The notes under the pieces: generated by a model
What the model was told of the DNA's origin: nothing
Database searches by the model: none
What the model saw: only the letters and a program-made list of their open reading frames with translations
In this document: positions 6,948 to 42,479 of the stretch, piece by piece
Layout: each line of letters begins with the position of its first letter
How positions within the stretch are numbered: position 1 is the first letter of the stretch
Translations under genes and position numbers: made by a program
Source of the DNA: a virus
Length of the DNA: 42,520 bases
IMG/VR virus record: IMGVR_UViG_3300035034_002366
Location: 1 to 42,520 of that record
Strand: one strand, 5' to 3'

Positions 6948-7019
6948 ACACATATACCTTGTATTACCATTGTATTTAGTCATAACAGTAGATGGCCTAT
7001 GATAATGAAAATAAGGTTC

Positions 7020-7094
7020 TGGATGCGGCGGCAAGATTCGAACTTGCGGTCTTCTAAGCCAAAATCAGACGTTTTACCACTAAACTACGCCGCA
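7020..7094 (-). tRNA. tRNA-Gln (anticodon UUG) with encoded CCA
   Basis: The minus strand folds into a complete cloverleaf of 75 nt: a 7-bp acceptor stem TGCGGCG/CGCCGCA, a 4-bp D stem GTTT/AAAC with loop AGTGGTA, an anticodon stem TCTGA/TTAGA with loop TTTTGGC (anticodon TTG at 34-36), a 5-nt variable loop and a 5-bp T stem GCAAG/CTTGC with loop TTCGAAT. The 3' CCA is encoded after a T at the discriminator position. It reads CAA (Gln), a codon common in this AT-rich DNA. It precedes the 677-residue gene on the same strand. Confidence 0.95.
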
Positions 7095-7298: not shown

Positions 7299-7958
7299 AT
7301 GTTTATCACGTTTGAAGGTGTTGATGGCTCTGGTAAGAGTACTGCTGTTAAAAGGTTTGCAGAAATTTTGAGAACTAGGTATGGTTCTGATAGAGTGGTT
7401 GTGACAAGAGACCCTGGTGGTACTGATGTTGCTGCTGACATCAGAAACGTTATTCTATCTAATGATATTGATCCTGTGACAGAGTTATTACTGTATACCG
7501 CAGCAAGACGGGAAATATATGTCAACATTATTAATCCTGCATTAATGCAGAACAAGATTGTTATTTCTGATAGATACATTGACAGTACTAAAGTTTATCA
7601 ATGGTATGCTCGTCAAGGTGAGGCGGCTCATGCTTCAATGGGTGATATTAAAGACCTTCATATTATGGCATGTTCTGGTATTATGCCTGATCTTACATTT
7701 GTATTGAACGCAACAACACAAACTGTTAAAGATAGAATAAATGCACGTCCCGATGAAAGTAATAGATTTGATCTAATGGGTGAGGAATTCTTTGATAGGA
7801 TTATTGAAGGCTTTTATAAAACATCATGTGTTGAAAAAGAACGCTGTAAGGGCATTGATGCTAATGCGTGTATTGATGATGTTCAGCAAGAGGTTATGGA
7901 GAAATTTGATGAATTTCTTATATCCAAGGCATCAAAACATTATATTACAAATAGGTAA
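7299..7958 (+). CDS. tmk: Thymidylate kinase (dTMP kinase)
   Basis: Phosphorylates dTMP to dTDP with ATP, supplying dTTP for phage DNA synthesis (EC 2.7.4.9) in the cytoplasm. The P-loop GVDGSGKS is at residues 7-14; the TRDPGGT motif at 36-42 corresponds to the family's REPGGT, and the DRY motif is at 91-93. The length of 219 residues is normal for the family and the protein looks complete. The start is supported by AAGGATTTGTT. It stands alone between the minus-strand tRNA unit and the minus-strand tail genes. An AT-rich 200-bp leader separates it from the tRNA, but no consensus promoter could be fixed there. The gene is common in large phages. Confidence 0.95.
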   Translation: MFITFEGVDGSGKSTAVKRFAEILRTRYGSDRVVVTRDPGGTDVAADIRNVILSNDIDPVTELLLYTAARREIYVNIINPALMQNKIVISDRYIDSTKVYQWYARQGEAAHASMGDIKDLHIMACSGIMPDLTFVLNATTQTVKDRINARPDESNRFDLMGEEFFDRIIEGFYKTSCVEKERCKGIDANACIDDVQQEVMEKFDEFLISKASKHYITNR

Positions 7959-14000: not shown

Positions 14001-17000
14001 GTGGTTGTTCGGAGTATGTTAGCTCTTCGTCACCAACGAATGCGCTGAACTCGGTATTACCATCATCATAGCTGACACCGCTTAGAAGAGTGCCTGATAC
14101 ATCAGTAGCGAATGTGTGTGATGCATTAGTCTGGAAGACTGTTACACCATCCGTACCAGTGTACCCTGCACGTGACTTAGCATAGCTTATGCGACGTGTT
14201 GTCGTTGATGCCACACCATCATTATCACGATACTCAATCTCAAGATCGATGTGACCCTGATCGGCTGTCATAAGTGAGATACCAACTGTATCATCGGTAC
14301 GATCAACGATAACACCATCTGGTGTGATTGTTTTGAAGTACCATTTATTGTTAGCAGCAGTATTACCTGAAGAGAATGGAACCTCGGTTAGTCCACGGAA
14401 GACAGTAATGGTGCAATCTCCGCCACCATAATCATTGACCACGCCTTCGTTGGTAGCGAAGAATGTGTGGCTCTCATTGCTGAGAATGACGGAGATTGCT
14501 GATGGTGCATCTTGAAGACGATAGATAGTAACTTGGTCTTCAATGGTTTGCGTTACACCATCAATAGTAATTGTTTTGCTAAATGTTCCAGTAACAGTAT
14601 TACGTGAACCGAAATTGGATATGCTTAAAACTTTGGTATTAATTGAACCACTTGTACCATTGGTAAACAAACTGGTGACGTTATTACCTTGGTCATCTAC
14701 CGCAGAGAATGTATAAGGCTGAGTGACATTGAACCCAATTGGCTTAAGAGTAATTGACTGTGAAGTATCTTTAGCATTACTTTGTTCATCAAAAATAAAT
14801 GATTGTCCTGATGCCACAACTCGCAATGAGCGTCCTAGAATACCTGATCTTGCTTTAGAGTACGTTAATGTTTTTTCAAAGTCTTGTACATCACCAGAGC
14901 TATCCTTATAGCGAACAACAACATCTATTCTTGCAAAGTCACCAGTGAACCCATCAATACGGATAGATTGTTCAGAATGTAAATTGAATGCACTAATTGG
15001 TCCATTTGTATCAACGGTTAAAAGACGCCATGTGTCATTAGCTAGGTCAAAGTCATAATTAATTGTGGATATACCGCGACGGAGTTTAAACTTTGCATTA
15101 CCATCTGATAAACTTCCAAGAATATTGCCATCTTCATCAGCAGCATATGTGTGATTCTCATTATCCACACTAATTGTAATTGCATCTGAACCTTCTTTGA
15201 TACGATTAATTGTGACTGTATCGGTGAATGTTTGTTCAGGCATATCCACACCGATGGATTTAACCTTGAACACACCATCACCTGTGCCGAAATCAAATCG
15301 TAGACCTGTTATATCATTAGTAATGAAGTCGTCGCCACCTGCATCTAAGTTGGTCATGTCAAAATAGAGTGTAACTTCATCACCAGCTTTATAGAGTTTG
15401 TCACCAACTGTTGGAAAAGCGCGATAATCATTTGAGTGATTATGAGAAGCTGTACGATAAAACATAATACATTGCGCACTAGTAGGTGGTGTTATTATCT
15501 CAAGCTCTACAATAAAGCGATTATAGATAGCACCATCGAAAGGATTAGATGTGAAGTCCTTGTACATAAATGGATTATTTGTTAAATCGTTTGGGGTAAG
15601 TGTTACACCATTTGCATCAACAACCATTGCATCCATTGATGAATATAACCAGTCATTGAAGTCTAGTCCTGAATGCTGTGCGTTAACATGTGGCTCTTGA
15701 CGTGTTGCAGTAACCTTTACAAGATCATTCGTACCAAAGTTTGCAGCAGTGAGAATACGTTGGTTATCATTAGTGCCTGATGATAAAAGATTGCTTACAT
15801 CATTATCGGTTGCATTGACTGCTGTGAATGTTGCCTTACCAATATTATCAGACTTCTCGACTTCAAATACAATTTGGCTTGGGTTAGGATTTATACCATC
15901 CTGATTGAATTCAAATATATTGGATGATGAAATCAAACGAAAGTTTGAGGCTGATACTCCAGCAGTCGTGCGTGAATAACTAATAACTTTGTTTAATGTT
16001 ACACTAGTGCCGCCAATATCTGTATAAATTATTTCAAATGCTAATGCCCCTTCATTATCGGACATTGATGTGATACCTATTGTATTGAGACCACCTGATG
16101 ATGTATTTTGTACAACATTGATTGGATTTATAGTACCAAATCTCCAAGTACCATTAGATGCATTAGCACTATATGGTCTTTCTATTGAACCAGAAAATAC
16201 TGATACATCACAATCACCTGCTGACCAATCAGATAATATAAAACCATTTTGATCAAACGGGAATGTATGATTCTCATTACTAAGAACAATAGTAATCGCA
16301 TCGATACCAGTACCACCATCGGCTCCATCTTTAACCTTTAGAACTCTTATTGTGTCAGTAAAAGTTTGTGATGTACCATTAACTGTTTCTATGACTGTTG
16401 CTGATATGTCTGCATATTCAGTATCTGCATTATCAAATCGAGTACCAGTGAGTCTAACAGTATTACTGTCAATCGTTGTGAAGTTGATTGTTTGTCCATC
16501 TTCATCAATAATATTGAATGTTACATTATTACTCAAGAATGTTTTAACAGCGGTAAAGTCTATATTTTGACCATTAAGTATTTGATTGTCGCCATCATAT
16601 CTTATAGTATTACTTGTGCTTAATAGACGCAATCCTCTAGCTGCTACACCTGCACGAGATTTTGAATATGTAATTTGTTTTCTAACATTTGGATATGCGT
16701 TACTATTTGAATCATAGTAGATGACATCAAAAGACATACTGGCCTGATCTTCGGTCATATTTTGCATTCTTAATGTTGGGTATGAAGATACATCAAAGTT
16801 GTCAATATCACTTTCAACACGGTTTACGATGCGGAATACATTTGGGGCAATGGTTAAGCTATAGTCAATTTCCTCACTACCACGATATACAATTACTGTT
16901 GAATCTGCTGATGGATAATCAACAACAACACCATTCTCATCAGCAGCAAACGTATGGCTCTCATTAGATAAGATGACAGAAACACCATCTCCACCCTCTT

Positions 17001-20000
17001 TGACACGATATACACTAATTTTATCTTCATAGGTTATACCAGAATTAGTGGCACTCGCAGTAATGGTTACAAACTGAGCATTACCAAAATCATCAATATC
17101 TAATGTTTTTTCAAATCCGTTAGAACCATTACCTAATGACACATTATTATTACTATCATTCTTTGCAGAAAAGATTGGTGTTCCAAGATTTGGTGTAGCA
17201 ATGGCTGTAAATGTGATACTGTCATCAGATATTTTTATATTATCTTGGTCAAATTGAAAAACTTGACCAGTACTGAATAGTTGTAGTAATCTGGCCGACT
17301 TACCTGCTGATGAACGACTATAAGAAATCACTCGGTCAATTTCAACTATTGTTCCAGTAAGTGATTTATATTGTGTTGTTACTGTGACAGTTCCAAAATC
17401 TGTAGTCATGTTAGTAACTGATATTATTGCAGTATTTTGAGTAGTCGTTATCCCTGTTGATGCAGTGACATTTGAAATTCTCCATGTGTCATTACCAAGA
17501 CTTGCATCATATGGTTTATCCTCCAGACCGCGATAAACCTGTACTGAACAATTACCACCAGTGTAGCTACCAATAACACCATTCTCATCAGCAGCAAACG
17601 TATGATTTTCATTGCTTAAAATTACATCTATGGATGCATCACCATTTTGAATACGAGAAATAGAAACTGTATCAGTTACGAGTTGATTATTCACATTTGT
17701 AAAAGAGCGTACATCTAATGTTGCAGTTTGTGATGCCCCAAAGTCAGAAATGCCAAAATCTATTTCATTATTTGAAGAACCCCAATACCAAGGTAAATCA
17801 TCACCATTCTCATCAACTATATTAATAATCGTATCAGCCATAGTATGTCCATCATCAATTGTAACTGATACGTGACCAATATAAACATCACCACCATTAC
17901 CAGAACTATCACCGTTAATATTAATGCTGTCTAATGGTCCATCGTTAACACCATCGATCTTGGTATAAGTGAAGTCATAAGGTTCCCAATCGTTCGTTGG
18001 AGTAAATGTTTGTTTACCACTATCACCAATACCACGAGTAATAAACGTAACATCAAAATTATCACTTGATCCACGCCTTGCCCATACACGCACACGAAGG
18101 GTTTTATTCTGGAAATATAAATTCCACATTGGTTCAATATCTAATATCGCACCATAAAATGCTACTGAAGTTGTAGATGCAATATCAGAAGATATCAAAA
18201 TACTTTCTCCACCGAATGGTGATTGAGTAGAATTAGTGATCGTTCCATTATTAGAAGAATGCATATACCATTTGTTACGATCTAATGCAGTCGTGCAATT
18301 ATTCATAAACCCAATGTTATACAAATTACTATTAAGTGTGAATGTTACAGACTGATTAGCATCCAGTGGTAATCCATCACCATTATATCTAAACACTTGT
18401 TCATTTGCCGTGGCTCGTACCCAACGTGCTGAATATCCGACTCTGGACTTGCTATAGGAAATTTGCCTTGTAAATGATTGAACAGTACCAGCAGGGTCAC
18501 GGTATTGTAATGTTACTATCACAGACCCATCATCATTGGGCATACTCAAAGGACTAACCTGTCCAGAAGTATTAACTACTGATAAACTATTTGTTGTTGC
18601 TATAGATTGTATTCTGAATGTGTTATTAGCAAGACTCTGATTATATGAAACAAGACTAGAACCCCTGTACATCGTAAATGTACAATTACCACCAGCATAA
18701 TCACCCGCAGCAATAATACCGTCCTCATTAGCGAAGAATGTATGTGACTCATTGCTACCGATGATTGTTACTACATCTGTACCATCAATGACACGATAAA
18801 CAGACACTTTGTCTTCGTATGTGACACCATTGTAAACAGCAGAAACAGACACAGTTATACTATTGAATGAACCAATATCGTCAATTTCTATATTTCTGGT
18901 ATCACCTGACCCGTTTATATTTGTGAACGACGCCCCCGTATTTGTAACTGCGGTCCATGTGGCAGCACCTAGATTAAATCGGCTTGCAGTAAAGTTAATT
19001 ACCTGATTAGAATTCTTGGGTAATCCATCACCGTCAAAAATAAATGCTGTTTCTGATGATGTTATACGGATATTACGTGCTGCTGTTCCAGCGCGCGACT
19101 TTGAATATGAGATCACACGTGTGACAGTTATATCTTGTAATTGAGAATTTGTGTAAATTACATCAACTTCTAATGAACCAATATCATCACTCATCGCTGT
19201 AACATTTATAGTTGGTGCGTTAGATGTGTTATGTGTGATGTTTGTAGCGGTGATTGTTCCTATTCTAAAAGAGTTTGCAACTTTAGTGCCACTATAACTA
19301 ACTGTATTGCTACCAAGTAATACTGATATTGTACAATTTCCAGTTGTATAATCAGAAACAACACCTAGCTCATTTGCAAAAAACGAATGATTTTCATTAC
19401 TCAATACGACAGATATTGTGTCTTGGCCATCTTTACCATTAACTAATCGAATAACACGCTGTGTGTCGTAGAAGGTTTGACCAGTTACTGGATCATCCTT
19501 GGATACAGTAACATCAACCCATTTTTTTGTACCAAAATTACTAGATTGTAATGTAGCAATATCTTTATTTTGTGTATTAACTGTAATGCTTACAGGGTTA
19601 TCATTATCATCCTTAGCAGACCAATTTGTATTAGTAAGGCTTGGAAGGAATTGTCTGATTGCTGTGAATGTAACCGAAGTGTTACTATCATCGGATATGC
19701 TACCATCATTATCAAATGTGAAGCTACCACCAGATTGTAATAAACGTAATGATCTCGCATCAGTACCAGCTTTTGACTTAGAGTAACTTGAGCGACGTTT
19801 AGCGGTTGACTGTATAGTTGTTGAGTTACGTTCTCTAACAATGACATCAAATTCTAAATATCCAGAATTTGTATCACTATCAAATGTATTAATACCATAC
19901 GCTGGTAATGCCACACTTGTGTTTCGTGTAACATTCAGTGAAAGAAAGCTTGTTACATTAAATGTATTAGCTAGTCCACCAGAGTTATATGAAAGCTCTT

Positions 20001-23000
20001 CTGAACCTCTGAACACTTTTATATTACTGTTGGCAATACTATACTCATCAGAAAGTACATTACCTTCTTCATCAGAAAATAGTGTATGTGTCTCATTTGT
20101 TAATATTATCTGAATACTATCTTCGCCATCGGTCAATCTAACAACACTCAGTTTATCTGTGAATGTTACAGATGTGCCACCAATAGTTGCTGTTGCTGTT
20201 GCTGTGACCTCTACCTGATTCGCTGTCCCAAATGATGAAATAGGCAGCGTTGCAATATCACCATTAGTTGTTAAACTGATAACAGCATCAGTTTCTCCAT
20301 TCTTGGCAGTCCATGTTGTACTAGAAACGTTAGTTCTTATACTTGTAAATGTAATAGCATCATTATTATCTTTAGGGGTACTATCAGTATTGAATGTGAA
20401 TGTCTGCTTATTGGCAAATATTCTTAAGTTTCTAGCAGGCTCACCACGTCTTGATTTAGAATAACTAATAGTCTTTTGAATAGTTATGTCAGTGCCATCA
20501 TTACTAGTGTATATCATAGGTATGATAAGTTTACCCTGATCACTAGCCATTGATGTAATACCAATGATAGGTGCAACTAGCGATGAATTTAAGGTGACCC
20601 CATCCTGAGTGATATTATTGGTATCATATCTCCAAGTATTATTACTTTTGGTAGATGAATAGGTAATCAGTTCCAGACCGTTATATAGATATCCAGTTGT
20701 ATTACCACCAGAATAAGAAGAAACTACACCATCTTCATCCGCTGCATAGGTATGTGCTTCATTATCAAAGAAGCCGATAATACTAGACTCACCATTTTCA
20801 CCATTTTCACCATCTTGGCCATTAGAACCATCAGTCAATCTTTGTATCGTTACAAAGTCTGAATATGTTTGTGAATTTCCATTCACTGTTGTAACAACAT
20901 TAACAGATATTATAACTCGTGATGATGTGCCAAAATTACTAATGGGTAGTGTGCGAACCAAATTACCCTGACCAGCATTTAATGTAACAGATGTACCGTT
21001 TTCATCGATGGCAGACCATGATATACTTTCACCTATAAGTGTTTTGGTAGCAGTGAATGTAATAGTATCTGAATTATCAACAGGAGTGGCATCAGAATTA
21101 AATTTAAAATACAGAGATGAAGAAACAAGCTGTAGTGCTCTCGCTGATGTACCTGTTAATGCCTTACTATAGCTGATAGAGCGATTAAATGTTGTCTCAT
21201 CACCATTGGGGTCAGTATAAATGATCTCAATACCAAGTGAGCCAGAATTGGCACTAAGGGCAGATATACCAATGGTTGGGGCAGTTTCAGATGTATCTCT
21301 AGTGACATTAGTTTCCGTAAATGAACCAAATCTAAATGAGTTGTTTATTGCGGGATCAGAATATGGGATAATATTATCACCACGATACACAATAACGTTA
21401 GAGTTACCTTGGTTGAAGTCTGATGCATCTATGACACCACTTTCTGATGATGAAAATGTGTGGTTCTGATTATCCAAGAATATGGAAATAGGAGCGACAA
21501 TACCACGTAGTCTTGTGACGGTACTTTGGTCACTTAAAGTAATAGTATTACCATTTACGATACTGGATGCTGTTGCCTTAACAATTACAGTTTCATTGTC
21601 CCCGAAGTTTGTGGATGAAAGTGTTTTTTCATTATTATCATTACCATCATCCAAAATATCAGATACAGGTGTAATTTCATTACCATCTTCATCATATGCC
21701 TGCCATGTGACATCACCAAGATTTTGCTTGAGTACGTTGAATGTTATATTAGATGGACCAATTATGTTATTATCACCATCAAATCTAAAAACAAGACTAT
21801 CCTGAATTAGCTTTATTGTGCGAGCATTTACACCTTCACGAGATTTGGCATAAGAAATGCGTTTAGTAACATCTACAGTACCTGAAACACTATTCTGATA
21901 TCTTATTGTGACATCCATATACCCGAATACTGCATCAAGATCATCTATTCCAACAATTGGCAAACTAAGAGACGTATCTCTTGAAACCCCTGATGATGTG
22001 ATAATACCATTAATAGACCAAGTATTATTAGCAGGAGTGGCATTATATCCAATTTCTTCTGTGCCTCTAAACACAGTTATTGTATTATTACCTGAAGGAT
22101 AATCAACAGTATCAATATCACCATTCTCATTGGCAAAGAACGTATGTGATTCATTACTAAAAATAACATTTAATGCGTTAGACCCTTCATTTAGTCTAAC
22201 AATACTGACAGTATCTTTATATGTAGTGCTTCCTTCTGTGACAGATGATGTGATAGATATTGATGATATCCCATCTACAAAATTATTAACAGAAATAGTT
22301 CGATTATTTGCATCTATAGAAGTCAGTGCAGCAGTTCTATTCACATTATTTTGATCTACTGCTGACCATGTAACTGCACCAAGTCCTTGAGTAATGGCCT
22401 GAATATTGATTACTTCATTATCTACTAATGGTTTACCATCACCATCAAATTCAAAACTTTGTTTTGATGATACAATTCTTACAGACCTAGCTGTGACACC
22501 AGCAATAGATTTGCTTAGTGACATTGTTTTTAAAATTGTGATACCATTTAAAATTGCAGAGAATATTGCAGTTGCTCGATTGGCTGTCATACCAGTGATT
22601 GTATAGTCACCAGCAGTACTATCACCACTATCATCTATTGTTGCGGTACATCCTAATGTGGATAATACACTGTATTCTACAAGCTGGTTCTGTCTCTTAA
22701 TACCCTGAAAGATTTCAAATCTACCATTGGCCTCATCTAATGCATCTATGGTTAATGCCCCAAGCTCATTAGCTGGTACAGTATGGGCCTCATTTGTTAA
22801 AAATCCTGTTAATGCATCAGCACCACCAACAAGCTCATTGATAGTGATAATATCGGTAAGACCTTCATCAGCCACTGTTACCTTGATTGGGAATACAGCA
22901 CTGGACACATCAGACCAACGTAATGTGAATGTCGCAACCCCTGTGCCTGATGTCGCCCCTGTGAATGCATGTATGCTAAATGTATTGGCAGGGGCATCAC

Positions 23001-23142
23001 TATCAGTGACTGTTATATTACCGCTTACAACAGGTGTTAATAAGTTGTTATGACGAACCTGAAAGCTAATATCACTATTGATTGGACTAGTTGAAAGATC
23101 ATCTTCAAAGGTGAACATAAACGAATCTGTTCTTAACGCCAT
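8044..23142 (-). CDS. Giant modular tail-fibre / adhesin protein, 5032 residues
   Basis: Probably a very long tail fibre or central tail-tip adhesin displayed on the virion for receptor binding. Residues ~100-3050 consist of 13 diverged modules, each with an (S/T)NE(S/N)HTF motif, a (V/I)YRG strand, ISYSKSRAG and a Gly/Asp/Thr-rich beta region, ending in (L/V)xDG. Module 4 begins with a short collagen-like NGQDGENGENGE run. Jelly-roll, carbohydrate-binding-like inserts (family inference) lie near residues 1610-1765, 2480-2640 and 3090-3310, with further ones around 4000-4150 and 4590-4750. Around residue 3640 there is a gpJ/DUF1983-like segment (RFTMSGTDELLKI, RVQIGKLG). Around 4790-4840 the AITNAKIANATI-type repeats suggest a beta-helix. 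The C-terminus is an Ig-like domain ending GGGGIDP. It lies 12 nt after the 805-residue fibre gene. Confidence 0.93.
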   Translation of the reverse strand: MALRTDSFMFTFEDDLSTSPINSDISFQVRHNNLLTPVVSGNITVTDSDAPANTFSIHAFTGATSGTGVATFTLRWSDVSSAVFPIKVTVADEGLTDIITINELVGGADALTGFLTNEAHTVPANELGALTIDALDEANGRFEIFQGIKRQNQLVEYSVLSTLGCTATIDDSGDSTAGDYTITGMTANRATAIFSAILNGITILKTMSLSKSIAGVTARSVRIVSSKQSFEFDGDGKPLVDNEVINIQAITQGLGAVTWSAVDQNNVNRTAALTSIDANNRTISVNNFVDGISSISITSSVTEGSTTYKDTVSIVRLNEGSNALNVIFSNESHTFFANENGDIDTVDYPSGNNTITVFRGTEEIGYNATPANNTWSINGIITSSGVSRDTSLSLPIVGIDDLDAVFGYMDVTIRYQNSVSGTVDVTKRISYAKSREGVNARTIKLIQDSLVFRFDGDNNIIGPSNITFNVLKQNLGDVTWQAYDEDGNEITPVSDILDDGNDNNEKTLSSTNFGDNETVIVKATASSIVNGNTITLSDQSTVTRLRGIVAPISIFLDNQNHTFSSSESGVIDASDFNQGNSNVIVYRGDNIIPYSDPAINNSFRFGSFTETNVTRDTSETAPTIGISALSANSGSLGIEIIYTDPNGDETTFNRSISYSKALTGTSARALQLVSSSLYFKFNSDATPVDNSDTITFTATKTLIGESISWSAIDENGTSVTLNAGQGNLVRTLPISNFGTSSRVIISVNVVTTVNGNSQTYSDFVTIQRLTDGSNGQDGENGENGESSIIGFFDNEAHTYAADEDGVVSSYSGGNTTGYLYNGLELITYSSTKSNNTWRYDTNNITQDGVTLNSSLVAPIIGITSMASDQGKLIIPMIYTSNDGTDITIQKTISYSKSRRGEPARNLRIFANKQTFTFNTDSTPKDNNDAITFTSIRTNVSSTTWTAKNGETDAVISLTTNGDIATLPISSFGTANQVEVTATATATIGGTSVTFTDKLSVVRLTDGEDSIQIILTNETHTLFSDEEGNVLSDEYSIANSNIKVFRGSEELSYNSGGLANTFNVTSFLSLNVTRNTSVALPAYGINTFDSDTNSGYLEFDVIVRERNSTTIQSTAKRRSSYSKSKAGTDARSLRLLQSGGSFTFDNDGSISDDSNTSVTFTAIRQFLPSLTNTNWSAKDDNDNPVSITVNTQNKDIATLQSSNFGTKKWVDVTVSKDDPVTGQTFYDTQRVIRLVNGKDGQDTISVVLSNENHSFFANELGVVSDYTTGNCTISVLLGSNTVSYSGTKVANSFRIGTITATNITHNTSNAPTINVTAMSDDIGSLEVDVIYTNSQLQDITVTRVISYSKSRAGTAARNIRITSSETAFIFDGDGLPKNSNQVINFTASRFNLGAATWTAVTNTGASFTNINGSGDTRNIEIDDIGSFNSITVSVSAVYNGVTYEDKVSVYRVIDGTDVVTIIGSNESHTFFANEDGIIAAGDYAGGNCTFTMYRGSSLVSYNQSLANNTFRIQSIATTNSLSVVNTSGQVSPLSMPNDDGSVIVTLQYRDPAGTVQSFTRQISYSKSRVGYSARWVRATANEQVFRYNGDGLPLDANQSVTFTLNSNLYNIGFMNNCTTALDRNKWYMHSSNNGTITNSTQSPFGGESILISSDIASTTSVAFYGAILDIEPMWNLYFQNKTLRVRVWARRGSSDNFDVTFITRGIGDSGKQTFTPTNDWEPYDFTYTKIDGVNDGPLDSININGDSSGNGGDVYIGHVSVTIDDGHTMADTIINIVDENGDDLPWYWGSSNNEIDFGISDFGASQTATLDVRSFTNVNNQLVTDTVSISRIQNGDASIDVILSNENHTFAADENGVIGSYTGGNCSVQVYRGLEDKPYDASLGNDTWRISNVTASTGITTTQNTAIISVTNMTTDFGTVTVTTQYKSLTGTIVEIDRVISYSRSSAGKSARLLQLFSTGQVFQFDQDNIKISDDSITFTAIATPNLGTPIFSAKNDSNNNVSLGNGSNGFEKTLDIDDFGNAQFVTITASATNSGITYEDKISVYRVKEGGDGVSVILSNESHTFAADENGVVVDYPSADSTVIVYRGSEEIDYSLTIAPNVFRIVNRVESDIDNFDVSSYPTLRMQNMTEDQASMSFDVIYYDSNSNAYPNVRKQITYSKSRAGVAARGLRLLSTSNTIRYDGDNQILNGQNIDFTAVKTFLSNNVTFNIIDEDGQTINFTTIDSNTVRLTGTRFDNADTEYADISATVIETVNGTSQTFTDTIRVLKVKDGADGGTGIDAITIVLSNENHTFPFDQNGFILSDWSAGDCDVSVFSGSIERPYSANASNGTWRFGTINPINVVQNTSSGGLNTIGITSMSDNEGALAFEIIYTDIGGTSVTLNKVISYSRTTAGVSASNFRLISSSNIFEFNQDGINPNPSQIVFEVEKSDNIGKATFTAVNATDNDVSNLLSSGTNDNQRILTAANFGTNDLVKVTATRQEPHVNAQHSGLDFNDWLYSSMDAMVVDANGVTLTPNDLTNNPFMYKDFTSNPFDGAIYNRFIVELEIITPPTSAQCIMFYRTASHNHSNDYRAFPTVGDKLYKAGDEVTLYFDMTNLDAGGDDFITNDITGLRFDFGTGDGVFKVKSIGVDMPEQTFTDTVTINRIKEGSDAITISVDNENHTYAADEDGNILGSLSDGNAKFKLRRGISTINYDFDLANDTWRLLTVDTNGPISAFNLHSEQSIRIDGFTGDFARIDVVVRYKDSSGDVQDFEKTLTYSKARSGILGRSLRVVASGQSFIFDEQSNAKDTSQSITLKPIGFNVTQPYTFSAVDDQGNNVTSLFTNGTSGSINTKVLSISNFGSRNTVTGTFSKTITIDGVTQTIEDQVTIYRLQDAPSAISVILSNESHTFFATNEGVVNDYGGGDCTITVFRGLTEVPFSSGNTAANNKWYFKTITPDGVIVDRTDDTVGISLMTADQGHIDLEIEYRDNDGVASTTTRRISYAKSRAGYTGTDGVTVFQTNASHTFATDVSGTLLSGVSYDDGNTEFSAFVGDEELTYSEQPQVNTFRIASVTTSNVTRDGTENGPVVGISNMSADKGILDVTLEIYPAREEFRNTGFELGQDLLQTPNGPDGWIFETDRPQGNVGYMADDVDPESQQLSKLAWGNDDPTSSSPFGQPGTFTIGKLISVKDVSEITVNAKVFSRDLTTPASNTTFGSNETYYSDDDVYARIKAYDVNGNVVALTEDVSITLSHKIWNTGVYDGNLSNQWLNFNHTFAIPSNVVTVKLSLVAVDRNRTIGTKGSYGSHAAILYDDVSFESDGAIFDITKPVIVTQRVSYSRARTGEAATFTYIRPNNGTVLKNGAGNLTGQIVKIDGGSLSTVSNSGLTSSSTQLYINGTPLSPRSTSYNFDSDDISGSTVLEARAGDSGTILDTITLTDVLDGLGGGYVSSNNGLTLIRLNSDSSTFNPSSTRLDGTFYETGTTTSPYIRKSLINVRMSGDVIQLRSTIVDGGDSEIAITTTDQSGNTIANATWTETSSMTLTFTFTDPVSGKIIDVTETVYALDAAVRGSRQFYATGSSWGDATANAAIISQGFSVVRNDVVTISNPITGFAQTRTFDGSNWIIVVQVIDGNAVVQGTLSADRLASGLIETALLQIGSSRFTMSGTDELLKITDQNGQTRVQIGKLGTDNYGLRLYSSSGNLILGTSDGIDPDQLNDFTTYFDSLPSGFIDYFDKLSEKPRNFTIRACGNLATNKPSTVGDNAYERIMEYAGNGTYNLLAGPISRGYTVSIYNMPTRTFTRVGERADGFDTFSSITESSAMATLLDSTTSDDLIIIRTNNEPQRHRLDGGLEAAMYRIGASQSIYGNNNKFKFRSAYILIGRGGIGHGNGHEFYRGDIDSDPDAYLDVGLTIFPDGRYTVQGGDGIANADDLLYSNGETVGSLRPAEAGSTEGAVIGSNLYADNGVTVLDNDDLLNQNQIWDQVTGAPTDIYNSSDAAVGGFNVGFNDYPSGADNAPPAGWINWNSAGGNYKRSTVTQGGNYSLQMISDGAGAFGIQRLSSTRYNNLVAGTPIRISFDYYVNSYSSGASGILFILKRTQDSVVQSFKIEVPNYDTGVWQRVTKIVYVGGNDFNLVHIYALGSWNGFSAYPSTLDILIDNVDFQILDTGLSNAAVPVPDYSDIPNTPANLQELDAASGTSLSNLLKDSIAPGMSIGGTGNVYFEINKLPNGDYNAGEIKINGSTFYHPNPSLFADSSSQSRGKFTFTNNGTIGIQTQMEGAWYLRPIKAYVIFTKSDLSTRFGSASDYALGSQQNFFVGYYDWKDSQWYTIPNSGAPVAFTPEDGDCIMAALFMGETATEIEAIHMFTSVNTILPEDGADVTTSVLSGTAANLMPSTYQVLFGNTGSRPHDNPQITTPTYFLDASKMIIGGTGAISPITNKIAFKPMNTSGIDNNVQRMYFVNSANDYNLILRGGKKYIFSCFINILGDTEEVNFFVENKDDSNNRTLVRMIRVGTSTFVEDTGGWVRGQCVFDLTSEPTDEYEYRLGMTIKNGTTSTTLNGLWMDGLMLEELVGTNEVPSALNAPNYSENEATRDLRSSGRSDTVFRNGFEDLEWGEWFDNVGSGYELEASGNTFSGNTSGLVTGDGTSTPPSGGSTDGVRVELPKSYSTSFAAYEIDNPDGSGTITRSRKVRVTAMVKNVDSSEFAITFSTNDIGNSGWQYFTPSNAWRAYSFIYEIGDVQDSENNQYVGIWGDTSNNGGRILVDNVSVELLPDVRETGGGIFAALQDRLSAANITTYIEGAAIDTALIKNAAITNALIGNGAITNAKIANATIDGAKIANATIGSAQIAELLGDKINFGNNTTFEDANNSFYSIAGGKRYRFGGPFGSNSDLLLWFGNDSVTLNSETKTNGIFALATDGEVYYGADPISDAAVDKLSSVKLSSQFIFDANNGGGSSGTFTTNSVTATPQGGSGSYTVEWVRVDGSSAITANSSTSLTTTFTATVANSDTAFATFRIIITDTDGREASNDLRVTISNFGGGGIDP
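14100..22800 (-). repeat. Thirteen diverged coding repeats in the giant fibre gene
   Basis: The NE(S/N)HTF-type motif is coded near 22785, 22145, 21460, 20755, 20090, 19390, 18745, 17608, 16955, 16270, 15155, 14467 and 14120. Most steps are 640-705 bp (about 215-235 residues). Two steps near 1.1 kb (18745-17608 and 16270-15155) hold an extra jelly-roll-like insert of about 450 bp. The last step is short (about 350 bp), so module 12 is truncated. The copies are clearly related but strongly diverged, which indicates old duplication rather than recent slippage. Confidence 0.85.
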
Positions 23143-23154
23143 AAGTTTTGAGAC

Positions 23155-27856: not shown

Positions 27857-27882
27857 GAATAGAAACACGACCCGCTGCGTGG

Positions 27883-27930
27883 AATATTCGTAATGTGGTA
27901 TAATTGAGTTTATACTACATTACGAATATT
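27883..27930. terminator. 21-bp inverted repeat between convergent genes
   Basis: Arms 27883-27903 and 27910-27930 pair over 21 positions with a single mismatch (G against A) around a 6-nt loop TTGAGT. The right arm contains the last codons and TAG stop (27915-27917) of the minus-strand gene. Its position fits a bidirectional terminator for the 27113-27856 run and the 27915-28778 gene. Confidence 0.75.
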
Positions 27931-28778
27931 TTACCATAAAGAGTGCCAGTGATGGCCTCAATATTATATTCAATTCCATCTCCTATATTATCCAAATATG
28001 ATTGAGCCTCGTCAAAGGCAATCTCATCATTTCTATTAACCATATACCTTTTTGAACCATCAACATGATAATGATATTGTCTTGGTAATGGATTGAATGT
28101 AACCTTCTTGGTAACAAGTGCTTGGGCAAAAAGTTCATTATAGACTTCAAACCAATCTCTTATTTTTCTGTCACGTGCTGATTTGAATGTACAAATTTTA
28201 TGTGCAAGACCTAAAAATACTCTCTGGTTGCGATGAGCATTAGAGCTAGTATTACGCATACCCATATCAATATCCTGCCATCTAAATGTACTATAATCAC
28301 CATACGCAGTTTGAATTACATATTCAAATTCTCTTGCTAAATCTGTAATCCATCTTTGGTAATAGTTATTTTCGCCACGCTTTCTGATAAGCGCATGTCC
28401 TAATCTGTGAGCAATTATCCAAGGTGTCATAGGGATACGTTCAGCACCACTATTGTTAGTATAAACAATATGGCAGCTATCAGGATCATCTTTCATACGT
28501 TGAGCAACCATCTGGTGTAACTCTTCGTCAATATCCATAAGATAGTCTTGTGACACTTGACCAATTTCAGTATGTTTGGCACTACCAACGACATTTACCA
28601 TATAAACATATACGTCAGGACCAAATGGTTGGAACACCTTTTCTAACTTATTCTTCATGATAGGATTAGAAACTAATCTTCTGTCAGCTTTATGTCTAAA
28701 ACCATGGCTATTATCGAAGTTGCCAATCAGATCATAATCCCCTAAAGGGGCTTCCGTGAAAATGTCTGTAATACGCAT
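27915..28778 (-). CDS. Hypothetical protein with an HRLGH metallopeptidase-like motif
   Basis: Encodes 287 residues. The centre, MTPWIIAHRLGHALIRKRG, sits where zinc peptidases carry HExxH, but the catalytic Glu is replaced by Arg (HRLGH). A later NELFAQAL segment contains a Glu that could be a third ligand. This may be a degenerate metallopeptidase fold or a chance resemblance. No ribosome-binding site precedes the ATG; instead CATAAATA lies 6 nt upstream, so initiation may be leaderless. The stop codon lies inside the terminator hairpin. Confidence 0.8.
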   Translation of the reverse strand: MRITDIFTEAPLGDYDLIGNFDNSHGFRHKADRRLVSNPIMKNKLEKVFQPFGPDVYVYMVNVVGSAKHTEIGQVSQDYLMDIDEELHQMVAQRMKDDPDSCHIVYTNNSGAERIPMTPWIIAHRLGHALIRKRGENNYYQRWITDLAREFEYVIQTAYGDYSTFRWQDIDMGMRNTSSNAHRNQRVFLGLAHKICTFKSARDRKIRDWFEVYNELFAQALVTKKVTFNPLPRQYHYHVDGSKRYMVNRNDEIAFDEAQSYLDNIGDGIEYNIEAITGTLYGKIFVM

Positions 28779-31637: not shown

Positions 31638-31665
31638 TATGCTAATTTATTGATTGGATTGTTAT

Positions 31666-32208
31666 ATGACACGGGTATTAAATTTATATGGAGGCCCATG
31701 TGTAGGTAAAAGTACGTTGGCTGCTGGTATTACCTTCATGATGAAAACGGCTGGTTATAATGTTGAGCTTGTTACAGAGGTTGCTAAAGATTATGTGTGG
31801 GAAAACAGTAAGATAATATTTAATAACCAACTTTATCTTACCACTAACCAATATCATAATATGTTTAGACTTAAAGAATATGCAGACTTTATAATCACTG
31901 ATGCGCCATTATTGAATTGTGCCGCATATTTCCCTGATGATTATCCCGACTGTGTAATGGAAACTGTTAAATGGATGCATGATCAATTTGATAATACAAA
32001 TTTTTATATTGATAGAGTGATACCTTACAATCCCAAAGGGCGAAAGCATTCAGAAGAAGAAAGTAAACTTGTTGATGCTCGTATACGACACCTATTGACA
32101 GAGTATGAAGTATCGTACCAAATTGTTGATGCAAATGATAATACTGCCAAACGGTTGTCATCTCTTTTGATTGACCGTTTAGAAATGTTAAATGCGGAGC
32201 CAACATGA
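31666..32208 (+). CDS. AAA_28 / NadR-like P-loop kinase or ATPase
   Basis: 180 residues from the ATG at 31666, with GGA 7 nt upstream; a TTG at 31654 is an alternative. It has a Walker A motif GGPCVGKS at residues 9-16, then VELVTEVAKDYVW and, around residue 80, DFIITDAPLLN. This order (P-loop, VE-x-EYAK, ITDxPL) is that of the AAA_28 family, which includes the nicotinamide riboside kinase domain of NadR (family knowledge). It may phosphorylate nicotinamide riboside to NMN and so feed the adenylyltransferase coded at 36365-37441, but other nucleoside or nucleotide substrates are equally possible. It is first in a run of overlapping genes. Confidence 0.8.
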   Translation: MTRVLNLYGGPCVGKSTLAAGITFMMKTAGYNVELVTEVAKDYVWENSKIIFNNQLYLTTNQYHNMFRLKEYADFIITDAPLLNCAAYFPDDYPDCVMETVKWMHDQFDNTNFYIDRVIPYNPKGRKHSEEESKLVDARIRHLLTEYEVSYQIVDANDNTAKRLSSLLIDRLEMLNAEPT

Positions 32209-34886: not shown

Positions 34887-36353
34887 TTATGTGCATGAGT
34901 TTCGTAAGTGCTTATCAATCCGCTCACGAATGACACTTAGTGTAGTCATATTCTCCTCAACTAACATACCATTCTGAACGACTGGTTGTAATAAATTAGT
35001 CACCTTATCGAGTAATCCACGCTCTCTGAGACTATTTTCTGACTCTGTGATGATATCCCCGCTATCATTATAATATACAATCTGTTTGCCACGCTTAGAT
35101 GTTTTACCACCATGCACAGGGTCTTTATAAACATCAACACGAACACCATCTATAATAGCTTCATTTGTCTTTTGTGCAAATTTTAATGTGTCACGATTAC
35201 ATTTTTGAAGTAATCCTCCACCCATACCAAATACAAGGTTCTCAATCGACCAACCAGCATTCATAGTATTAACGCATAACTGATAAATGCTCTTATCATC
35301 CATTCCATCACCTTGAATGACACGAACGAAATCGGGAAGAACCTTATACCCTTTGTTATTAGTAATGTTCCCAAACTTCTCACCAAGGATTTCTAATAGC
35401 TCAACGGCAACTGTTTCAGGATCACCACTGTCGGGACGAATGACTAACCGACCATTACTTTTACCAAGTTCAACCACTTCATCATGAAGCTGATTACCCC
35501 AAATTTCACGAGTAGCATGATAAATGTCATAACTATCTGAGACACAAGCAAATACAGAGCCTTCGCCGCGCCCAAATGTCTCTAGCATGTTGCGATAGGC
35601 ATCAACCTCATTATCCCGCCCCCATGCAGTCATAGTGCTATGTTCTGACGCAGGAATAGAGCCGAATGTACAATCCTGTGCATCATAGTATCTGTCAAGC
35701 CATGGTAATGCTTCAATAGTATCAGTACCATAAAATGATGTTAGATGACCAGCACCACCAATTTGAGCACCTTCACTACAGTTTACACCACGTGCGCCAA
35801 AGTCTTGTAACATCCAGTTAATTACTGACCAAGGATCATCACAACACTCATATAGTTTACCAAGAAGCATTTTCTTAATAGAATAGCTTTCTGTAGCAAC
35901 TGTAGAAGGATACCAATTAGCTCGTAACAGTGCTGTTTCAAGAAATGCTGGCAACCATCCAATATTAAAATCATTTTGATTACTAGATGTGATTTGTGAT
36001 AGGCATGTTCCTAATGGTACAATCATACCTTCAGGTAATGATTCGATATTGATTGGAAGCTTACCCTTATATGTCTTTAGAACATGTTCCCATCCTTCAC
36101 GATAGAATGGTACTCCCACTCTGACACAATAGCGTCCTGCTTCATTAATCATATCTTGGTCAAGTGTTACAGAAGTTAGCCATTTTAAGTATGCCTGTTG
36201 GCCAAAGTATACCATTTCATCCCAATCACGATCTTTGACACCACGGGATTCAATATAACTGCGTATCATTGTCGTGTTTCTTGGAAGTTGCCAAGGGTGA
36301 CTATACTTGTAGGCATCTGCTCTTAATAGTGGTGATAAATTTAATGCGGTCAT
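34887..36353 (-). CDS. nadV: Nicotinamide phosphoribosyltransferase (Nampt / NadV)
   Basis: Converts nicotinamide and PRPP to NMN and pyrophosphate (EC 2.4.2.12), the first step of nicotinamide salvage to NAD+. The 488 residues match the full family length. Signatures include NLSPLLRADAYKYSHPWQLP at the N-terminus, LQDFGARGVNCSEGAQIGGA with following GTDT, SIPASEHST with the catalytic His near residue 238, VSDSYDIYHA and LVIRPDSGDPE. No key element is visibly missing. It is second in a two-gene operon, 11 bp after the NMN adenylyltransferase-Nudix gene, so the two enzymes form a complete nicotinamide-to-NAD+ route. Vibrio phage KVP40 is a known phage that carries homologues of both (established knowledge). 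Confidence 0.96.
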   Translation of the reverse strand: MTALNLSPLLRADAYKYSHPWQLPRNTTMIRSYIESRGVKDRDWDEMVYFGQQAYLKWLTSVTLDQDMINEAGRYCVRVGVPFYREGWEHVLKTYKGKLPINIESLPEGMIVPLGTCLSQITSSNQNDFNIGWLPAFLETALLRANWYPSTVATESYSIKKMLLGKLYECCDDPWSVINWMLQDFGARGVNCSEGAQIGGAGHLTSFYGTDTIEALPWLDRYYDAQDCTFGSIPASEHSTMTAWGRDNEVDAYRNMLETFGRGEGSVFACVSDSYDIYHATREIWGNQLHDEVVELGKSNGRLVIRPDSGDPETVAVELLEILGEKFGNITNNKGYKVLPDFVRVIQGDGMDDKSIYQLCVNTMNAGWSIENLVFGMGGGLLQKCNRDTLKFAQKTNEAIIDGVRVDVYKDPVHGGKTSKRGKQIVYYNDSGDIITESENSLRERGLLDKVTNLLQPVVQNGMLVEENMTTLSVIRERIDKHLRNSCT

Positions 36354-36364
36354 GATATTTCTCC

Positions 36365-37441
36365 TTAAATGTTTCCGACAAGTTTTTGTAGTATAAAGCC
36401 ATGATCCTCAAATGTATCTTGAGGTGTGATACGACTTAATGGTCTAAATCTCACTTCCATGATTTCATCAGGGTCTTCATCTTTATTGTTACCAATTCTA
36501 ACACGTGGAAGCTTACCATTTGGTAATACGAATAATCCCACACGTGTGAAGATGCGGCCACGAGATGAACGGTGTGGGTCATCAAACTCTTGGACACCTT
36601 TATGATTGGCCATTAGATAATTATCGGTGCAATCTATATCTGTCTCTTCACGGAGTTCACGGATCATTGCGTCCATGATTGTTTCATGTTCACCAATATA
36701 GCCACCAGGTAATGCCCATTTACCACGGCCTGGCATGTTTCCGCGTTTCACCATAAGCACATATCCATTCTGAATAACAACAGCATCAACAGTGTTAAAT
36801 GTTGGTGTATAAGGTGCATTAGCCCATAATAGCTTTTGTGCTTCTGACCATTCCCATTCTTGGCGCACTTCTGTGAACCAATCCTCACGCATGAGACTAT
36901 TAACATATAATGCGACTTTGATTGGCATCATATCTTCGGGATTACGATTATACTGTGTATGAGCATGATGCTGCTCATACATGCTTAGGCGAATATCAGA
37001 AGCATTTAGTGGTATTACATGAACCACGGGAACAGATGAGAACTGTGGAAATTGGTTGAGATAAAACCCTGTTCCATCTTTCTGAGAACCAACAAGTGCA
37101 ATCTTCTTGGGTTTGTCTCGCCATCCATCCTCATTAGTGACATCAAACACAATGTCTTGAGCTTGCCGCAACCATGCCTGATTTTGATACATCTTATCTT
37201 CAAGGGGTAGAATGATAATACGCTTATCAGCAATAGCCTTACTGATGCTATCAACAAATGTGAACATATTTTTACGTTCATCAAATGTAAACGGATTACG
37301 CACTCTTCGGTTAAAATTACTGGAACCAATAAGGACAATAAGCTTCTCAACTTTAGTGAGTGCTTTTTCAATAACCGCTACATGTCCTTTGTGTAACGGT
37401 TGGAATCTTCCTATGAAGACACCGTAGTCATATTCATACAT
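36365..37441 (-). CDS. Bifunctional NMN adenylyltransferase / Nudix hydrolase
   Basis: 358 residues from the ATG at 37441 with an AAGGAG-type site upstream; the open frame extends to 37489 but overlaps the promoter region. Residues ~1-180 form a nucleotidyltransferase with GRFQPLHKGH at 11-20 and SSNFNRRVRNPFTFDERK, which transfers AMP from ATP to NMN to make NAD+ (EC 2.7.7.1). Residues ~215-358 form a Nudix domain with the box GGYIGEHETI...RELREETD around 242-264, probably an ADP-ribose pyrophosphatase by comparison with NadM-Nudix and KVP40 NatV proteins. It is first gene of the NAD operon, driven by the promoter at 37506-37534. Confidence 0.94.
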   Translation of the reverse strand: MYEYDYGVFIGRFQPLHKGHVAVIEKALTKVEKLIVLIGSSNFNRRVRNPFTFDERKNMFTFVDSISKAIADKRIIILPLEDKMYQNQAWLRQAQDIVFDVTNEDGWRDKPKKIALVGSQKDGTGFYLNQFPQFSSVPVVHVIPLNASDIRLSMYEQHHAHTQYNRNPEDMMPIKVALYVNSLMREDWFTEVRQEWEWSEAQKLLWANAPYTPTFNTVDAVVIQNGYVLMVKRGNMPGRGKWALPGGYIGEHETIMDAMIRELREETDIDCTDNYLMANHKGVQEFDDPHRSSRGRIFTRVGLFVLPNGKLPRVRIGNNKDEDPDEIMEVRFRPLSRITPQDTFEDHGFILQKLVGNI

Positions 37442-37505
37442 ATCCTGCTCCTTCTCTTCCGCAGTATGGTCAGCATATTGAACGTACATTCGATGCTGAT
37501 AATTC

Positions 37506-37534
37506 TATTTATGCTCATCATGAGCATATGTCAA
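37506..37534 (-). promoter_or_regulatory. NAD operon promoter with a palindrome filling the spacer
   Basis: On the minus strand TTGACA (37534-37529) and TAAATA (37511-37506) are exactly 17 nt apart. ATGCTCAT-C-ATGAGCAT, a perfect 8+1+8 palindrome at 37511-37527, fills nearly the whole spacer and reaches the first base of the -10 box. This is the classic position for a repressor operator. The -35 box overlaps the last codons of the upstream gene (37531-37812). Confidence 0.75.
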
Positions 37535-39243: not shown

Positions 39244-40944
39244 ATGATGAATTTGGTAGATAAGCTTTTTGCAGTTGTTGAGGCTGCACTTTTTAAAGCG
39301 GGTTCTCGTTTAAATGTTGCTGATTATGGTAAGCTTGAAAAGAAAGATATTACATACAAGTATGCTGGATGTATAAAAATTGCGAAAGAACTTGGGATTG
39401 ATGTTGATCCATTTGTGAAACAAGTTTCTGAGTATCTCATCAATGATGCATACATTGATGATGTAACCTTTAATGAATATGGCATCATGTGGATTACACC
39501 ATCTGAGCAGGTTATTGCCTCATATGTTCGTTCATTATGTGATAATAACTCTGATGGGTTTGTAGATTATCATGAAACCATTCAAGATATTATTTTAGAC
39601 TATGGTGGTCCAAATTTAGCTAAACCTATGCACGTGGGACATATGCGTTCTGCCATTTTGGGTGATACCATCAATAATATTTTGAAAAAAGTGGGTCATC
39701 ATACAACATCAGATATTCATTATGGTGACTTCGGACTTCATATGGGCATCATAGAAGAAGAGATTAAGAATGGTGAAACTGAAAGCACAGTAGAATATCT
39801 TGGCATTCTATATAAGAATGGTCGTAAACGTTATGAAACTGATGAAGCTTATAAACAGAATGTGCAACAGAACATTCTGAATTCTCAAAATTATGTGTTT
39901 CCCACTTATACTAACTATATTATTAAAATGTGTTTACCACAGATTAAAGAGACTTATCAACGTTTGGGTATTACGTTTGATCTTTATGATGGTGAGCAAG
40001 TTAACATCAATGGATTGCCTTTTGATGAGATTGTTAACACAAATGGTGTTGAACTTAGTGATGGTGCATATATTATTCGTGTTGAGGAACCATCAGATAA
40101 TAAAGATTACCCTCCATTGATGTTGAAAAATAGTGCAGGACTTTATGGATATGGTATGACTGATTTACAAACTATTCGTTATCGTCAAGAATATACATGC
40201 GATAAAATCATTTATGTGGTAGACCAGCGTCAGTCATTACACTTTGAGCAATTGTTTCGTGCTGCTAAAAAAACGGGCTATGCTTATGGTATAGAATTAC
40301 AACATGTTGGTTTTGGTACTGTTAATGGTGAAGATAACAAACCATTAAAGACGCGTGATGGTGATAATATGAGTCTTGAAGAGCTTTTAGACTTAGCCGA
40401 CCAGAAGGCGCTTGAGCGTGTTAATATGTCTGACTTGGGTGGTCAGACTAATGTCCCTTATATGATGAAGAAAAAAATTGCTCGTCAAATTGCATCAGCG
40501 GCTGTACGGTTCAGTGATCTTAAAACTAATCGTATGACTAATTATAAATTTGATATTAATCGAGCATTAGAGAATGAGGGGATGACCGCACCATATATTC
40601 TATATACAGCCGTTCGATTACAAAAGCTTGTGGATGATACTGAATGGGAAGGTGATGATGAAGCGTTGCCTTGTGTTAAGACTGATATAGAACGTAATCT
40701 TATTATGCTCTTAGCAGAGTATCCACGCATGTTTGATAAAGCCTATCTTACGCTTGAGCCTCACCATATTGCTACACATTTATATGATGTGTCCAAAGCT
40801 GCGTCACAATTCTATAGTAATTGTCCTGTACGTGGTCAGGATGCTCATATAGTTCATTCACGTATGCTTATTGCACTTGTCACACTCTGGCAAATAACGA
40901 GTATGTGTAGGCTTCTAGGAATGGAAATACCACCATTCATGTAA
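39244..40944 (+). CDS. argS: Arginyl-tRNA synthetase (class I)
   Basis: Charges tRNA-Arg with arginine (EC 6.1.1.19). The 566 residues are full family length. A short N-terminal tRNA-binding domain (Add-1-like, residues ~1-95) is followed by the class I catalytic core: DYGGPNLAKPMHVGHMRSAI gives the HIGH-type motif HVGH near 130-133, then DIHYGDFGLHMGI and YVVDQRQSLHFEQLF. The KMSKS position is non-canonical (KTRDGDNMSLEELL), as usual in ArgRS. The C-terminal helical anticodon-binding domain ends YSNCPVRGQDA... and LLGMEIPPFM, matching bacterial ArgRS ends. It is complete and apparently functional. It sits opposite to, and inside, the array of (T/S)SP genes, with tail overlap of 8 nt on the right. 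No tRNA-Arg is seen in the window. Confidence 0.95.
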   Translation: MMNLVDKLFAVVEAALFKAGSRLNVADYGKLEKKDITYKYAGCIKIAKELGIDVDPFVKQVSEYLINDAYIDDVTFNEYGIMWITPSEQVIASYVRSLCDNNSDGFVDYHETIQDIILDYGGPNLAKPMHVGHMRSAILGDTINNILKKVGHHTTSDIHYGDFGLHMGIIEEEIKNGETESTVEYLGILYKNGRKRYETDEAYKQNVQQNILNSQNYVFPTYTNYIIKMCLPQIKETYQRLGITFDLYDGEQVNINGLPFDEIVNTNGVELSDGAYIIRVEEPSDNKDYPPLMLKNSAGLYGYGMTDLQTIRYRQEYTCDKIIYVVDQRQSLHFEQLFRAAKKTGYAYGIELQHVGFGTVNGEDNKPLKTRDGDNMSLEELLDLADQKALERVNMSDLGGQTNVPYMMKKKIARQIASAAVRFSDLKTNRMTNYKFDINRALENEGMTAPYILYTAVRLQKLVDDTEWEGDDEALPCVKTDIERNLIMLLAEYPRMFDKAYLTLEPHHIATHLYDVSKAASQFYSNCPVRGQDAHIVHSRMLIALVTLWQITSMCRLLGMEIPPFM

Positions 40945-41797: not shown

Positions 41798-41807
41798 CAT
41801 AAATAGA
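41798..41807 (+). promoter_or_regulatory. CATAAATAGA box upstream of a 38-residue gene
   Basis: CATAAATAGA resembles the T4-type late promoter core TATAAATA. It lies 21 nt before the ATG at 41828, with no -35 box at the usual distance. Similar boxes without a -35 precede the genes starting at 25572 and 31547. Confidence 0.4.
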
Positions 41808-41827: not shown

Positions 41828-41944
41828 ATGGATGAACATTATATCTTTAATATGACCAAAGCTCAAGCCTGTGCATTTTTTGGATACGGTGCTACAATCA
41901 TAAACTGTGGCATTCTCGCTTTCATAGGATATATTATATTTTAA
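41828..41944 (+). CDS. Very small membrane peptide
   Basis: 38 residues (MDEHYIFNMTKAQACAFFGY and onward), ending in a hydrophobic C-terminal helix. AAGG lies 9 nt upstream and a CATAAATAGA box further upstream. It overlaps tail to tail with the next minus-strand gene by 4 nt. Function unknown. Confidence 0.5.
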   Translation: MDEHYIFNMTKAQACAFFGYGATIINCGILAFIGYIIF

Positions 41945-42146: not shown

Positions 42147-42287
42147 TTATTTAATTCTAAAACGACTAATTTTTGAAATGTGATATGATGATGATTGTGT
42201 GAACATCTGCATTAATACATCATGATTATGGAACCAATCTAAATCATGTAGTCTACATTCATCTATGATGACCCAATAGCCCTTCAC
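42147..42287 (-). CDS. Small hypothetical protein, GTG start
   Basis: 46 residues from the GTG at 42287, chosen because GAGG lies 7 nt upstream. The frame is open to 42377 but that part crosses a terminator hairpin. It begins VKGYWVIIDECRLHDLDWFH and ends in a basic SKISRFRIK tail. No family is recognised. Confidence 0.5.
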   Translation of the reverse strand: MKGYWVIIDECRLHDLDWFHNHDVLMQMFTQSSSYHISKISRFRIK

Positions 42288-42328: not shown

Positions 42329-42355
42329 AAAAAAAGACCCTCCCGAAGGAGGGTC
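42329..42355 (-). terminator. Strong intrinsic terminator, minus strand
   Basis: Read on the minus strand, GACCCTCC and GGAGGGTC form a perfect 8-bp GC-rich stem with a TTCG tetraloop (42355-42336), followed directly by seven T (42335-42329). This is a canonical Rho-independent terminator and the strongest in the window. Confidence 0.95.
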
Positions 42356-42444
42356 GAACGGGGTGGTGATCTCTCACAACTTAGCCACTAAATGGTACGC
42401 CTATTTAAGCGCTCTGTAGCACACAATGTGTTCCCGTTAGCCAC
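42329..42444 (-). ncRNA. Candidate phage-encoded structured small RNA, ~115 nt
   Basis: A consensus promoter (42451-42479) fires leftwards and a canonical terminator ends at 42329, so the predicted transcript is about 115 nt (start near 42444). No ORF with a start and ribosome-binding site lies inside. The RNA has self-complementary parts: AACGGG near the 5' end pairs with CCCGTT just before the terminator and encloses the body; ACACA/TGTGT forms a small hairpin; GTGA-GAGA-TCAC is a stem with a GNRA tetraloop. The word GTGGCTAA occurs twice (5' end and middle). No known RNA family, including tRNA, fits. Roles could be antisense regulation, protein sequestration or anti-defence. Confidence 0.7.
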
Positions 42445-42450
42445 ATATCT

Positions 42451-42479
42451 TATTTATGATATTTTCTAAGATATGTCAA
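42451..42479 (-). promoter_or_regulatory. Consensus promoter of the small RNA
   Basis: On the minus strand TTGACA (42479-42474) and TAAATA (42456-42451) are exactly 17 nt apart. A 10-bp inverted repeat, ACATATCTTA (42443-42452) with TAAGATATGT (42467-42476), overlaps both boxes and could be an operator. Confidence 0.8.

Follow-up and report, generated by a model that had tools for sequence, protein, structure and literature searches.

To our knowledge, descriptions of stand-alone RNAs from large lytic phages are few. The closest systems are the non-coding RNAs of the jumbo phage PhiKZ, ~100 and ~180 nt in length and confirmed by Northern blot, of which the former (~100 nt) derives from the 3'-UTR of PHIKZ298 and the latter (~180 nt) from the 5'-UTR of p40 (PMC8545117). 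Phage small RNAs also include PreS of lambda and VpdS of VP882, which bind Hfq and have known effects (PMC12197685). The analysis covered a linear virus record of 42,520 bases (the window), and the locus described here is located on its minus strand, at the right-hand end. We favour, with modest confidence, the view that this locus is a phage gene encoding a structured, stand-alone non-coding RNA of ~115 nt. The basis for this reading in the sequence is a promoter pair and a terminator that exceed chance, the lack of a credible ORF and a single-sequence fold. Similar to the PhiKZ RNAs, the candidate is a short structured intergenic RNA of a large phage, with a terminator-like 3' hairpin and no small ORF, and by analogy it may work as they do. 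The PhiKZ RNAs, however, are reported to be UTR-derived with two stem-loops, whereas the candidate follows a promoter-like unit of its own and is predicted to fold into a multi-branched structure, and its similarity to PhiKZ DNA is restricted to terminator letters. PreS and VpdS resemble the candidate in being phage-encoded and non-coding with a proposed regulatory role; in contrast with these Hfq-binding RNAs of known effect, the RNA described here is a candidate from sequence, and no homolog and no phage target above background were found for it.

Promoter unit and expression timing

All the elements named in the initial annotation are present where it placed them; the strand, which it had left unstated, is minus. 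In the 5' to 3' direction of that strand, TTGACA (42479-42474) is followed by 15 nt, CATAAATA (42458-42451), ~117 nt and a terminator that runs to 42329. Upstream of TTGACA only 41 nt remain before the contig ends, leaving any gene further upstream out of view. The features of the locus are as follows.

42474..42479, minus strand: -35-like TTGACA, the start of TTGACATAT (from sequence)
42451..42458, minus strand: promoter motif CATAAATA, which contains TAAATA 17 nt after TTGACA (recurring unit)
42443..42476, no strand assigned: inverted repeat ACATATCTTA-14-TAAGATATGT, perfect over 10 bp, bracketing the promoter (repeat search)
42329..42445, minus strand: predicted non-coding RNA of ~117 nt (start inferred from promoter)
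42437..42444, minus strand: first GTGGCTAA copy, paired with GCUACA in the nascent fold and largely single-stranded in the final predicted one
42433..42438, minus strand: 5' strand of the predicted closing stem, AACGGG (fold)
42421..42431, minus strand: predicted arm 1, ACAC-AUU-GUGU (fold)
42384..42420, minus strand: predicted arm 2, a long bulged hairpin, GCUAC...GUGGC (fold)
42381..42388, minus strand: second GTGGCTAA copy, which contributes GUGGC to a pairing with GCUAC in the final predicted fold
42363..42380, minus strand: predicted arm 3, a GNRA-capped hairpin with a GAGA loop, GUGA-GAGA-UCAC (fold)
42357..42362, minus strand: 3' strand of the predicted closing stem, CCCGUU (fold)
42329..42355, minus strand: intrinsic terminator, GACCCUCC-UUCG-GGAGGGUC-U7 (stem and U-tract)
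42147..42287, minus strand: possible 46-aa ORF with a GTG start and GAGG upstream, 42 nt past the terminator

The locus had been described as having a consensus promoter, TTGACA-17-TAAATA. The letters and the spacing are indeed present, but they do not amount to a sigma-70 consensus, because TAAATA fits TATAAT at just 3/6 positions; the best sigma-70-style match is TTGATA-18-TATCAT (42485-42456; 10/12), which overlaps the CATAAATA unit. The TTGACATAT-N12-CATAAATA unit occurs exactly twice in the window, at the RNA locus and at 37534-37506 on the minus strand, where it immediately precedes the NMN adenylyltransferase/nudix gene, the first of an NAD-salvage pair. Two copies of the wider TTGACA-N15-CATAAATA unit appeared in none of 300 simulations (order-4 Markov). 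The CATAAATA motif is itself enriched 5' of same-strand gene starts (3 occurrences compared with 0.22 in shuffles, a count reached in 2/2000), as scored in 60-nt upstream regions for a gene list that was our own choice from the ORF table. A scan of IMG/VR for the promoter unit returned six contigs, none of which resembled the RNA locus. The inverted repeat around the promoter could be a putative operator.

Early expression, as originally proposed, finds no support in these letters. Seven of the eight letters of CATAAATA agree with the T4-type late promoter TATAAATA and the CBB motif ATAAATA, and like the motif reported 5' of structural genes in this jumbo phage (PMC5259590), CATAAATA is located upstream of gene starts. 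A gp55-like factor was not identified in this fragment. T4 late promoters do not require TTGACA upstream, whereas here this host-like hexamer stands at a fixed upstream spacing at two sites. Thus, the timing of expression is not readable from the promoter, as a late-like CATAAATA is combined with a host-like -35 hexamer.

Terminator, coding capacity and predicted fold

The 8-bp GC stem, UUCG loop and seven U that had been reported are present; the stem contains 6 G-C pairs, the loop is closed by C-G and the DNA reads GACCCTCC-TTCG-GGAGGGTC-T7. When a perfect terminator is defined as a perfect stem of at least 7 bp, with at least 5 G-C pairs, followed by at least 6 T, this is the only example in the 42.5-kb window, and none occurred in 200 simulations. 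The view that the interval lacks a credible ORF also holds: no frame of at least 20 aa is confined to it on the minus strand, and a 76-aa frame from GTG 42377 extends through the terminator. A leader peptide of 13 codons, MWLTGTHCVLQSA, starting at ATG 42446, was considered and rejected, being nearly leaderless with no ribosome-binding site visible by eye. The product of the locus is very probably a structured RNA rather than a protein. Among the marks of a stand-alone phage small RNA, the locus displays a promoter of its own, as judged by its letters only, an intrinsic terminator of its own and no protein-coding capacity.

The closing stem AACGGG/CCCGTT and the GNRA-capped hairpin noted initially were both confirmed in the minus-strand sequence, and the predicted shape was unchanged across the eight 5' ends tried. 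The whole transcript has a predicted energy of -41.8 kcal/mol (z -3.2) and ranks 10 out of 8482 same-length windows, within the lowest 0.2%, although this low value largely reflects the terminator. Without the terminator, the core from the expected start to the end of the stem gives -24.8 kcal/mol (z -1.1), while the core treated as an exact closed domain, which was picked after the fold had been seen, gives -24.6 kcal/mol (z -2.4); 143 of the 8486 same-length sliding windows of the phage match or exceed the core in fold stability. The G+C content of the core is 47%, compared with 36% for the genome, and is reached by ~4% of windows. The internal fold is thus plausible as a model, but it is weaker evidence than the promoter and the terminator.

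A repeated word had also been singled out. GTGGCTAA is indeed present twice, but the repeat is not significant, because the chance probability of such an 8-mer pair in ~120 nt is ~0.1 by our own estimate. In the folding model both copies compete for GCUACA, with RNA of up to ~84 nt favouring the first copy and longer RNA the second (-21.4 kcal/mol for the nascent fold vs -24.8 kcal/mol for the final one). This nascent rearrangement is an attractive model, but one built on a single sequence and a near-chance repeat.

Relatives, mechanism and competing readings

The initial annotation had recognised no known family, and none was matched here. Rfam scans at gathering and E-value thresholds (covering 6S, riboswitch, T-box, tmRNA and others) returned nothing credible, the best score being 16.8 bits against a gathering score of 50 for that family. 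A tRNA or tRNA-like identity was rejected, as neither ARAGORN nor Rfam gave a tRNA match at the RNA. Searches by blastn against phages and plasmids found short matches only, mostly to terminator letters, and four pattern scans of IMG/VR (closing-stem, GNRA-arm, 5'-end and repeat) yielded chance-level matches and no RNA homolog; the best pattern candidate (E 0.14) came from one group of related contigs and had many broken pairs. A scan of genome contigs gave one match, in a Porphyromonadaceae MAG, where a covariance model finds nothing. This model, built from the single sequence and run over fetched loci and whole distant large-phage records, found no credible match in the jumbo phages GAP32, CBB, XaC1 and XbC2 or in immuto and DSS3_MAL1, and the distant huge contigs reached via ArgRS or NMN adenylyltransferase held no match to the RNA. 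It should be emphasized that a diverged homolog could be missed, as a model built from one sequence does not reach far and the pattern scans require exact letters. The phage itself is without close relatives in searches with ArgRS and NMN adenylyltransferase. As no relative emerged from any search, the RNA is counted as one further candidate phage small RNA, and is an orphan addition to those already known. Such an orphan says little until a transcript or a relative is seen; if expressed, it would offer a clean test case, present in a single copy and tied to NAD-salvage genes by its defined type of promoter.

We infer the transcription of the candidate RNA, its start site, its fold in vivo and any target. 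RNA polymerase would start at the phage TTGACATAT-N12-CATAAATA promoter, a type common to the NAD-salvage operon, and would terminate at the strong intrinsic terminator. The resulting transcript would adopt a multi-branched core consisting of the closing stem and three arms, such that ~9 nt of the 5' end (UAUGUGGCU) stays free and the stable terminator hairpin forms the 3' end. Its most likely mode of action would be in trans, either through base pairing of the free 5' end or the loops to a transcript of the phage or the host, or as a scaffold bound by protein. The earlier proposal that it acts on host or phage mRNAs was not substantiated: no phage target rose above background, the best antisense duplex at phage gene starts (-44.3 kcal/mol) falling within the shuffled background (1% point -44.6).

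It could be argued that the locus is a structured 5' leader whose terminator regulates ORFs of 46 and 50 aa, with read-through, a ligand or a protein allowing the polymerase to pass. Two small same-strand ORFs of these sizes do lie downstream of the terminator, a consensus scan detected no promoter in the stretch that separates the 46-aa ORF from the terminator, and the competition of the GTGGCTAA copies for GCUACA would rearrange the nascent fold; PhiKZ, moreover, has an ncRNA derived from a 5'UTR, for which premature termination is possible (PMC8545117). An anti-terminator, however, is absent. When one was sought by pairing, the 5' arm of the terminator found ~3 weak pairs upstream before the 3' arm exists, and folding indicates that the hairpin forms independently of the core. 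A terminator-type attenuator, riboswitch or hairpin switch is thus disfavoured, since neither arm of the terminator has a stable pairing partner upstream, and the 46-aa frame, which starts 42 nt past the terminator, has no match among PHROG families. We therefore prefer a stand-alone RNA to a regulated leader, which we consider unlikely.

The RNA might instead represent the 3' UTR and terminator of a minus-strand gene beyond the contig end, either as a processed fragment or as a mere terminator region. The final 41 nt of the contig contain minus-strand stop codons in all frames, so that such a gene could end there, and PhiKZ offers a 3'-UTR RNA of this kind (PMC8545117). Between the contig end and the RNA, however, there is a non-random promoter unit, an element that would be superfluous in a pure 3' UTR; a stand-alone RNA is thus preferred over a bare 3' UTR, which seems distinctly unlikely. 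An incidental promoter-terminator pair that serves as a transcriptional insulator, with no functional RNA between, would be in keeping with a core fold only weakly better than shuffles and an interval without relatives, but is improbable in view of the elevated G+C content of the core and the position of the full fold in the lowest 0.2% of windows; nor would an insulator need a gap of 117 nt. Thus, the stand-alone RNA between its own promoter and terminator, as envisaged in the initial annotation, is the best reading, although the early timing and the targets attached to it are not supported. We regard as very improbable the more ambitious proposal of a new RNA class with a four-way-junction core, GTGGCTAA words that swap the partner GCUACA during synthesis, co-expression with NAD salvage via the shared promoter type and a function as an RNA switch or a scaffold for protein binding, in a lineage of large phages without a sequenced close relative.

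Other genes and elements of the window

The NAD-salvage pair (34887-37489, minus strand) encodes a nicotinamide phosphoribosyltransferase and a bifunctional NMN adenylyltransferase/nudix protein; a scan found no relatives of the NMN adenylyltransferase, and a 41% match is present on a 608-kb contig. A palindrome, ATGCTCATgATGAGCAT, lies inside the promoter of this pair. A further CATAAATA is found on the plus strand at 41798-41805 and precedes by 23 nt an ORF of 38 aa on that strand (41829-41943), and this site has TGCTCAT and CATAAATAGAA in common with the promoter at 37534. The arginyl-tRNA synthetase gene (39244-40944, plus strand) contains the PF00750 catalytic and DALR_1 anticodon-binding domains, and its relatives, at 32-36% only, are on huge viral contigs of up to 608 kb. 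Behind a tail-fibre-like gene is a single ORF of 5032 aa (8044-23142, minus strand), in which the stretch 22825-23154 shares 32% identity with the C-terminal part of the 805-aa tail fibre protein encoded by that gene. Between two convergent genes there is a nearly perfect hairpin of ~25 bp (27878-27936; -42.4 kcal/mol, z -6.9) in A+T-rich DNA, without the classical T-tail terminator layout. A tRNA-Gln (TTG) gene was identified by ARAGORN and Rfam at 7020-7094 on the minus strand; as it overlaps the 706-aa frame at 4914-7034, the mechanical start of that frame is probably wrong. Two thymidylate-kinase-like genes are located at 7299-7958 and 31654-32208, both on the plus strand (PHROGs 761 and 2107).
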